DNA of 44,685 bases from an uncultured Candidatus Melainabacteria bacterium (lineage in GTDB: Bacteria > Cyanobacteriota > Vampirovibrionia > Gastranaerophilales > Gastranaerophilaceae): the NCBI GenBank assembly GCA_949915775.1, contig CATLEG010000005.1, forward strand, positions 1 through 44,685, in the 5' to 3' direction. Of the stretch, positions 36,280-40,191 are shown piece after piece. Below the pieces are notes generated by a model. The model was not told the DNA's origin and ran no database searches. It saw nothing but the letters and a program-made list of their open reading frames with translations. Positions within the stretch are counted from its first letter, which is position 1, and each line of letters begins with the position of its first letter. A program made the translations under genes and the position numbers.

Positions 36280-36308
36280 TTGAAAAACAAAAACAAATAT
36301 GTTATAAT
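36280..36308 (+). promoter_or_regulatory. Sigma70-type promoter of ncRNA copy 1
   Basis: TTGAAA-17 bp-TATAAT, extended -10 TGTTATAAT. Confidence 0.8.
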
Positions 36309-36313
36309 AAAAC

Positions 36314-36532
36314 CACAGGGTGGCACCTTGAGAAAGTGCCGGAACTCTTAGAAGCTTGAACGGTTCTTACTTAACGTGAGAGCCGTTTTTTAATATAAAT
36401 AAAATCATAAAGATTAGTAGTAAACTAATATTGAATTTATCCATATCAGCCCCCTTTCTAGTCGGGAACCAACCCGAAGCTTGAATTTTGTTGTTAGCAG
36501 TTCCTTTTCGAAAGAGTTTCTTTTACCCTGTG
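36314..36532 (+). ncRNA. Putative structured RNA, copy 1
   Basis: Closing helix CACAGGGT/ACCCTGTG; GGCAC..GTGCC hairpin; GGAACTCTT/AAGAGTTTC helix; AACGGTTCTTAC/GTGAGAGCCGTT hairpin; TCGGG/CCCGA hairpin. Confidence 0.7.
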
Positions 36533-36550
36533 TAATCTATTATATAACAC

Positions 36551-36579
36551 TTGAAAAACAAAAACAAATATGTTATAAT
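36551..36579 (+). promoter_or_regulatory. Sigma70-type promoter of ncRNA copy 2
   Basis: TTGAAA-17 bp-TATAAT, same spacer as copy 1. Confidence 0.8.
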
Positions 36580-36583
36580 AAAA

Positions 36584-36808
36584 ACACAGGGTGGCACCTT
36601 GAGAAAGTGCCGGGAACTCTGTAGAGATTGAAAACAGTTCTTACTTAATGTAAGGGCTGTTTTTTATTATGAATATAATCAAAAAAATCATTATTAATGT
36701 TAAATTGATATCTTTCTTATTACCCTCCTTCCTTCGGAACTAACGACCGAGATTGAAAATAACTGTTGTGTCGAAGTTTCTAAGAAAAGAGTTCCTTTTA
36801 CCCTGTGT
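36584..36808 (+). ncRNA. Putative structured RNA, copy 2
   Basis: Same helices: ACACAGGGT/ACCCTGTGT; GGAACTCT/AGAGTTCC; AACAGTTCTTAC/GTAAGGGCTGTT. Confidence 0.7.
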
Positions 36809-36925: not shown

Positions 36926-37144
36926 TTACAAATCGACTTTTGAAACGTCTGTCAGGGTTGCAAAATCCATGTCAAGTGCTTTAGCAATCTTTTCTAAAGT
37001 GTCTAATGTTGGTGAAACTTGTCCTGTCTCAATTTTCCAAATAGTATTTTTATCAACACCAGCCAAATTTGCTAATTCTAACTGTGATAAATCTCTTTTA
37101 TTCCGTTCTAGTTTTATTTTTTTAGAAATTTTTTTACTTATCAT
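36926..37144 (-). CDS. XRE-family HTH regulator
   Basis: RDLSQLELANLAGVDKNTIWKIETGQVSPTLDTLEKIAKALDMD; internal ATG 37144 preferred. Confidence 0.88.
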   Translation of the reverse strand: MISKKISKKIKLERNKRDLSQLELANLAGVDKNTIWKIETGQVSPTLDTLEKIAKALDMDFATLTDVSKVDL

Positions 37145-37246
37145 ATTTAATTCAACTTTTATAACATTATAATAAGATATTGACTTATTGTAGACAACTA
37201 TATATAATATGATTATACCTGAATATAATAAGATAAGGAGAAAAAT

Positions 37247-37567
37247 ATGTTTAGTAGAAATAGTTGTAAAGAACAATTTTATAAGAATTTACCATTATAC
37301 TTTAAAGACAATTTTGAGGGTAAATTTGTACATGAGGCAGTTTATAAAACATTTAAAAAAGAAGTATTTTTATTAACACAAACATATGTAAGGTTTGGAA
37401 TGTTACTTACAGCTCTTGTTGCAATCAAGGAACAAAAAAGTGAAAATTTATCATTAGTTTTATCAAATTTACTTGATGAATACATTAAACGTGTAGATGT
37501 TATTTGTAAACAATTAAACAGCATACTTGAACCGATAGCCAACGAATTAAATGTAACAATTTCTTAA
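37247..37567 (+). CDS. Hypothetical helical protein, divergent from the XRE gene
   Basis: AAGGAG RBS; 106 aa. Confidence 0.7.
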   Translation: MFSRNSCKEQFYKNLPLYFKDNFEGKFVHEAVYKTFKKEVFLLTQTYVRFGMLLTALVAIKEQKSENLSLVLSNLLDEYIKRVDVICKQLNSILEPIANELNVTIS

Positions 37568-39309: not shown

Positions 39310-39965
39310 CTTATACTAAAACTTCACACATCGTCCCCTCCATCGGCACTACGTGCGTAGCCACGCCGATAAACATTGATGATATTTGTTCTGTTTTGGA
39401 GAAGGTTAGCCGCTTGACCCGCCACTTGGGTTTTGGTGTTATTTTAAAGGCGTCATTGCGAGGAGCGAAGCGACGTGGCAATCCATTAATTTATAGGTTA
39501 AGTAATCAAAATAAAACCCTCCCTTACCACCTCTCACAAACGATACTCAATCGTTTGTTCGGCAGAGTCTTACAAAAGGAGGGGATAAAAAAGTCACGTC
39601 ATACTGAACTAGTTTCAGCATCTCAAGTTAACCCTCTCCTGTCACTTCGTGACACCTGCTTGGTTACTCGTGTTAAACGGCAATTCCGCATTTTGCCGCA
39701 GAGCCTTTGGCTCTTTGCAAAATTGCTCCAGCCTCGGCTCGCAATCCGCCTCCCCCAAGGGAGGGAAAATACTCTGTGCGCGATACCTACATCAAAATCT
39801 ACAAAATCTTCACCAATGTCTACCGGCAGGGCTACGTGCGTAGCACACGATAAGAACTTATCGACCTATCATCTTAACGTCTTAAAGACTGATAAAAACC
39901 CCTCCCTAACCACCTCTCACAAACGATACTCAATCGTTTGTTCGGCAGAGTACCTTGGAGAGGGA
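39310..39965. repeat. Island of nested palindromic repeats, including a 43-bp unit present twice (39526-39568 and 39909-39951)
   Basis: ACCACCTCTCACAAACGATACTCAATCGTTTGTTCGGCAGAGT identical in both copies; other hairpins GTCAC-TTC-GTGAC, GAGCC-TTT-GGCTC, CTACGTGCGTAG. Confidence 0.85.
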
Positions 39966-39972
39966 ACAATTA

Positions 39973-40191
39973 TTACCTATTAAAAATATTCTTATCTTTC
40001 AAATCTTTTTTATGAACTAAAAGTCCGCATTTTGAACAGGCAAGTATTTCACCGGAGCTATCAACAGGCAAAAATACATGCTCGCAATCTGTTTCTTTAA
40101 GTTCATCCTGCGCAAAAGGGTCAAACTTTTTTGAAGATTCGTATTTTTTATCCGGAAAAATCCATCTAAAAATTAATTCAACCAAATACAT
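39973..40191 (-). CDS. Small zinc-ribbon-like protein
   Basis: CEHVFLPVDSSGEILACSKCGLLVHKKD. Confidence 0.65.
   Translation of the reverse strand: MYLVELIFRWIFPDKKYESSKKFDPFAQDELKETDCEHVFLPVDSSGEILACSKCGLLVHKKDLKDKNIFNR

Follow-up and report, generated by a model that had tools for sequence, protein, structure and literature searches.

The fabG-acpP interval carries two structured, promoter-driven units

The window analysed here is a 44,685-nucleotide stretch of DNA from an uncultured Candidatus Melainabacteria bacterium. Between its fabG and acpP genes lies a pair of structured, promoter-driven units of about 270 bp each (copy 1 at 36280-36532 and copy 2 at 36551-36807), together with an XRE-type helix-turn-helix regulator (36926-37276, minus strand) and a 106-aa protein of unknown family (37247-37567, plus strand). 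A plus-strand promoter sequence, TTGAAA-17-TATAAT, opens each unit (36280-36308 in copy 1 and 36551-36579 in copy 2) and scores 11 of 12 matches in both. Compared to shuffled sequences, the 220-nt units gave folding z-scores of -5.8 and -5.9 and their 86-nt 5' parts gave -3.5 and -5.3; positions, promoters and folding thus agree with a preliminary description of the locus, made from the sequence alone, which had proposed two promoter-driven structured units. All of the helices listed in that description were found, these being the closing helix CACAGGGT/ACCCTGTG in both units, the GGCAC/GTGCC hairpin, the AACTCT/AGAGTT helix and a 12-bp hairpin followed by a T-run. The units had also not been recognised there as RNase P, tmRNA, SRP or a known riboswitch, and an Rfam scan likewise gave no family at the gathering score and only chance-level matches at a relaxed threshold. 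Elsewhere in the window, a 195-aa ORF (39396-39983) seems to be spurious, its translation resembling short dispersed repeats read through as protein (RGAKRRGNP, RHTELVSAS).

The plus strand is predicted to encode a short, terminated antisense RNA

In 98% of 114 homologues the plus-strand promoter matched at 10 or more of 12 positions, compared to 1% of shuffled sequences, with an average match of 10.9/12. The changes in the 12-bp hairpin between copies, which the preliminary description had taken to be compensatory, proved to be real, and as wobble pairs counted in the plus-strand reading were 133 G.T to 5 A.C, this terminator hairpin has been under selection as RNA of the plus strand. The earlier suggestion of a promoter-driven structured RNA that stops at the hairpin and T-run, at about 80-90 nt, is supported. 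In copy 1 the predicted RNA, of about 80 nt, would run from approximately 36314 to 36391 (plus strand) and comprise a 5' hairpin, a direct repeat, the terminator hairpin and the T-run, and its predicted counterpart in copy 2 lies at 36585-36666 (plus strand). This RNA is likely to be the antisense antitoxin of a peptide gene on the minus strand.

The 3' half of the unit resembles a gene for a small membrane peptide

The strong plus-strand promoter, the stable fold and the covarying terminator hairpin and closing helices would also suit a free-standing non-coding RNA of the plus strand, in which the hairpin acts as an attenuator and read-through gives a 220-nt structured RNA. The preliminary description had read the 3' half in this way, as the read-through part of a plus-strand RNA, and had taken the lack of a long ORF as a sign of a purely non-coding RNA. 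Alignment of the copies showed instead that the 3' half behaves as a coding gene of the minus strand with its own promoter-like sequence, in which a Shine-Dalgarno sequence, AAAGGGGG, is followed after 5 bases by an ATG and a frame for the 25-residue peptide MDKFNISLLLIFMILFILKNGSHVK. In copy 1 the ORF lies at 36367-36444 and the Shine-Dalgarno sequence at 36450-36457, both on the minus strand.

Such a minus-strand frame was present in 23 of the 24 copies aligned first, the exception being copy 2 of the window. By automatic criteria, a Shine-Dalgarno sequence, an ATG and a frame of 24-29 aa with a hydrophobic core were found in 108 of 114 full copies (a count that includes L194, which is frameshifted part-way); of the remaining six, two have a weak Shine-Dalgarno sequence with an open frame, three, including window copy 2, have lost the ATG and one is frameshifted. 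Across 61 representatives, pN/pS was 0.42 in the toxin frame and higher, at 0.81 and 1.67, in the two remaining sense frames; third codon positions were the most variable in the toxin frame. The core of the peptide has a mean hydropathy of 3.3 and its C-terminal tail is positively charged (net about +2). No family was found for it in Pfam, NCBIfam or PDB profiles, which gave only weak single-member matches.

The promoter-like sequence of the minus strand averages 8.2/12 matches compared to 7.1 in shuffles and reaches 9 or more in 43% of copies compared to 8% of shuffles, and so is not obvious in every copy; in copy 1 it reads TTGTTT-17-TATAAT (36539-36567, minus strand) and overlaps the antitoxin promoter of copy 2. 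In type I systems the promoter of the antisense RNA is usually strong and the opposing mRNA promoter weak. The predicted full-length toxin mRNA of copy 1 would be about 220 nt in length (36314-36532, minus strand). Copy 1 is, as judged from these elements, a complete module. In copy 2 the toxin reading frame (36641-36718, minus strand) is otherwise open and has AAG at the ATG position (36716-36718); this copy is probably antitoxin-only, its toxin start codon having been lost, so that no toxin would be made.

A direct repeat that differs between copies and agrees within them

A short direct repeat, mostly of 7-11 nt, is present in nearly every copy; its first occurrence (DRa) lies within the antitoxin, after the 5' hairpin and before the terminator, and its second (DRb) lies upstream of the Shine-Dalgarno sequence, on the side of the toxin 5' UTR. 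The repeated word varies among copies, yet agrees inside a copy: copy 1 has GAAGCTTGAA twice (DRa at 36351-36360, and DRb at 36476-36485, the complement of which falls in the 5' UTR of the toxin mRNA) and copy 2 has GAGATTGAAAA twice (36624-36634 and 36749-36759), all in plus-strand coordinates. In tests that treat copies as unrelated and leave shared ancestry uncorrected, the within-copy match was 8.31 nt compared to 5.26 nt (sd 0.15) with shuffled partners, a difference of about 20 SD over 65 representatives, and the predicted duplex between antitoxin and 5' UTR was -18.8 kcal/mol compared to -12.8 kcal/mol when shuffled (sd 0.41). The cognate duplex was predicted to be stronger than the non-cognate duplex from the same genome in 163 of 198 comparisons, with some cross-pairing remaining; for instance, good binding to the copy 1 UTR is predicted for the copy 2 antitoxin (-24 versus -29 kcal/mol). 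The predicted antitoxin contact is upstream of the Shine-Dalgarno sequence and not on it.

As the repeat varies between copies and matches within them, the toxin mRNA and the antitoxin appear to recognise each other by it, and the repeat would serve as a recognition tag between the two RNAs, by analogy with par/Fst. The matching repeats are complementary only between transcripts of opposite strands, which argues against a single non-coding RNA of the plus strand.

The predicted ends of the toxin mRNA can pair

The closing helix CAGGGT/ACCCTG (P1) is almost invariant across copies, and its inner arm (P2) covaries, for example as GATACTC/GAGTATC, CAGCTC/GAGCTG and AAGACTC/GAGTCTT. P2 pairing, computed on the minus strand, was -12.1 kcal/mol compared to -7.7 kcal/mol when shuffled (sd 0.31), in a test that again takes copies as unrelated and makes no correction for ancestry. 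Wobble counts for the two strands, at 57 and 55, assign P2 to neither one. As transcription of the antitoxin is expected to end short of the 3' arm, P2 most likely joins the 5' and 3' ends of the toxin mRNA, by analogy with hok and aapA. In folding predictions, truncation at the 3' end did not increase exposure of the Shine-Dalgarno sequence (unpaired approximately 0.20 in the full-length and 0.17 in the truncated form), and a fold-back and processing step is therefore not supported by the modelled folds.

P2 can form just as well in RNA of the minus strand, and with this, the coding behaviour of the 3' half and the repeats, we regard a free-standing non-coding RNA as very improbable. Readings as a retron, bridge RNA, tracrRNA, T-box leader or 6S-like RNA were also weighed from the layout and were dropped on the minus-strand ORF and the coevolution of the repeat.

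Distribution and genomic context

Further copies lie on other contigs of the source genome, and the genus yielded more than 20 good ones. A covariance model of the element (R1) detected it in 16 of 33 genomes of the genus. It was found in 74 of 192 sampled Candidatus Gastranaerophilales genomes and 26 of 45 genera, with up to 9 copies per genome, and is thus conserved well beyond the single contig from which it was described. The preliminary description had overlooked these dispersed homologues in the source and other genomes, as it had the minus-strand peptide gene and the variable direct repeat of each copy. In a 292-genome sample of the phylum, all matches fell in one family except for one weak match, and the sample of the order gave one further match in another family. 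A DNA pattern scan of named genomes found 74 places, mostly in records titled Candidatus Gastranaerophilales or Melainabacteria (NCBI taxonomy places the order in Candidatus Melainabacteria), with many of the others in untitled gut or rumen bins; the two titled Brachyspira and Acinetobacter are metagenome bins. Searches of phage, plasmid and viral contigs gave no match.

Among congeners with a readable fabG end, to which the comparison was confined (17 others being left out), seven have a fabG-acpP gap of about 100-240 nt with no insert, two carry about 1 kb of other DNA there and one, G032, has a copy of the module; one G024 contig ends at the start of a module copy after fabG. As congeners differ in the content of this gap, the module has been gained or lost there. 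The pair does lie between fabG and acpP, as the placing of the units in the fatty-acid cluster implied, but the tie to that cluster is accidental, the gap being short and empty in most readable congeners. At L263 and L288, from two congeners and both directly after fabG, a common stretch starting CAAGCCGAGCAGAGCCACGAAGATTGC precedes the module and resembles a dispersed repeat.

Dispersed copies, terminal inverted repeats (CACAGGGT/ACCCTGTG) and presence or absence between congeners are all features of MITE-like mobile repeats, for which the RNA and ORF signals would be incidental. The inner arms of the module, however, covary rather than keep one sequence, its ORF is under purifying selection and its promoters are conserved though they lie outside the inverted repeat, and we consider this explanation to be extremely improbable.

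XRE-type regulators adjoin module copies at 11 loci. Copies occur in prophage-like regions, beside baseplate J genes in G096 and between amidase and terminase genes in G194, and also in ordinary intergenic regions. The prophage-like regions with the module (L290, 5230-6434, and L291, 8393-8616, with terminase, amidase and baseplate J neighbours) include a four-unit array. In G117, an array with a 321-bp period holds about four (4.2) units (L181, 3416-4740), with one further unit nearby; two units of the G117 array have the same toxin and tag and the others have different tags. Two copies (L188, 4014-4235, and L045, 6606-6829) are recombined or truncated, one with a replaced antitoxin segment and one without the 3' closing arm.

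That copies are also found outside prophages, in ordinary intergenic regions, and that toxicity is a prediction would suit an antisense-controlled small membrane protein pair rather than a toxin-antitoxin system, the peptide being non-toxic at natural levels and having some other role in the membrane. We think this unlikely, as a small hydrophobic peptide, a strong antisense promoter and patchy presence make up the usual type I picture, tandem multi-copy arrays with copy-specific antisense tags are typical of type I systems, and decayed copies drop the peptide and keep the antitoxin, as is usual for them.

A candidate type I toxin-antitoxin family of gut Melainabacteria

Each unit holds a small hydrophobic peptide gene with a ribosome binding site and an antisense RNA with, as far as the sequence can tell, its own promoter and its own terminator, and pairing of this RNA with the toxin mRNA is predicted, by overlap in cis and by the coevolving repeat. 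With a probability of roughly 0.87, we read each unit as a type I toxin-antitoxin locus of an undescribed family in gut Melainabacteria. The observations behind this reading are drawn from sequence (the ORF and its coding pattern, the promoters, the terminator, repeat coevolution, helix covariation and distribution), and it is from these that we infer transcription and toxicity.

In the mechanism that we propose, the weaker minus-strand promoter would give an mRNA of about 220 nt for a 25-aa single-pass membrane peptide, and the strong plus-strand promoter an antisense RNA of about 80 nt, with its 3' end at the hairpin and T-run. This antitoxin would overlap the 3' part of the toxin mRNA and pair, through the copy-specific repeat, with the toxin 5' UTR upstream of the Shine-Dalgarno sequence. 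The presumed mode of translational block is that this pairing would prevent translation and/or mark the duplex for RNase III. Pairing of the 5' and 3' ends of the toxin mRNA (P1/P2) may hold the full-length transcript inert until a putative 3' processing.

Searches of the open-access literature, coverage of which was incomplete, turned up no account of type I systems from Melainabacteria, so that priority is not certain. If the reading is true, the range of type I systems would come to include Candidatus Melainabacteria, where upwards of 100 copies with natural variation would amount to a large natural experiment in how antisense RNAs and their targets change jointly and stay selective, and the module would explain unannotated repeats in many gut genomes.

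Comparison with known type I systems

Reports of type I systems were for a long time confined to Proteobacteria, Firmicutes and Tenericutes, and a first candidate from cyanobacteria followed in 2025 (PMC12390103). The msoT1/msoA1 pair of Microcystis aeruginosa resembles the module in being a type I candidate in the Cyanobacteriota/Melainabacteria group; by its description it is set apart by a 63-aa toxin with two predicted membrane helices, and no multi-copy direct-repeat family is described there. The zor/orz loci of E. coli are similarly duplicated, with a short variable segment that sets antitoxin specificity, and antitoxin-only copies are known (PMC3919570, PMC11264685). They differ in their limited 18-nt complementarity, lack the direct-repeat logic and are unrelated in sequence.

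The par locus of pAD1 (RNA I/RNA II-Fst) shares with the module opposing promoters, a small hydrophobic toxin, a short antisense RNA with its own terminator, and DNA direct repeats that give antitoxin/toxin mRNA complementarity and vary between loci (PMC7472228); direct repeats common to the antitoxin and toxin RNA genes are likewise found in the module. In contrast to par/Fst, the terminator of the module is not bidirectional, as its wobbles fit the plus strand only and no minus-strand T-run follows the hairpin, and its peptide has no recognisable Fst/Ldr signature (P/D/S/TXXXG) or PXXXG in the peptide alignment or by Pfam and NCBIfam. Moreover, the overlap with the antitoxin takes in the 3' part of the toxin ORF as well as the 3' UTR, the repeat is further upstream of the Shine-Dalgarno sequence and the host phylum is different.

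The aapA/IsoA systems of Helicobacter and hok/Sok are like the module in having a toxin mRNA of about 220 nt with pairing ends, an antisense RNA and several chromosomal paralogues (PMC6733600). End pairing of this type is predicted for the module, with P1 conserved and P2 covarying, although wobbles do not fix the strand on which it is used. The peptide is not recognisably related to theirs by Pfam, NCBIfam and PDB profiles, a variable direct-repeat tag is not described for those systems in the consulted passages of PMC6733600, and 3' processing is a proposal for the module.

As its terminator is not bidirectional and its peptide is not recognised, the module, which resembles par in the working of its tag and hok/aapA in that of its fold, is by the tests run a member of neither. 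We consider it reasonably probable that it forms a distinct Melainabacteria family, joining par-style variable tags, which make mutually selective pairs within a genome or array, to a toxin mRNA with hok/aapA-style folding of its ends.
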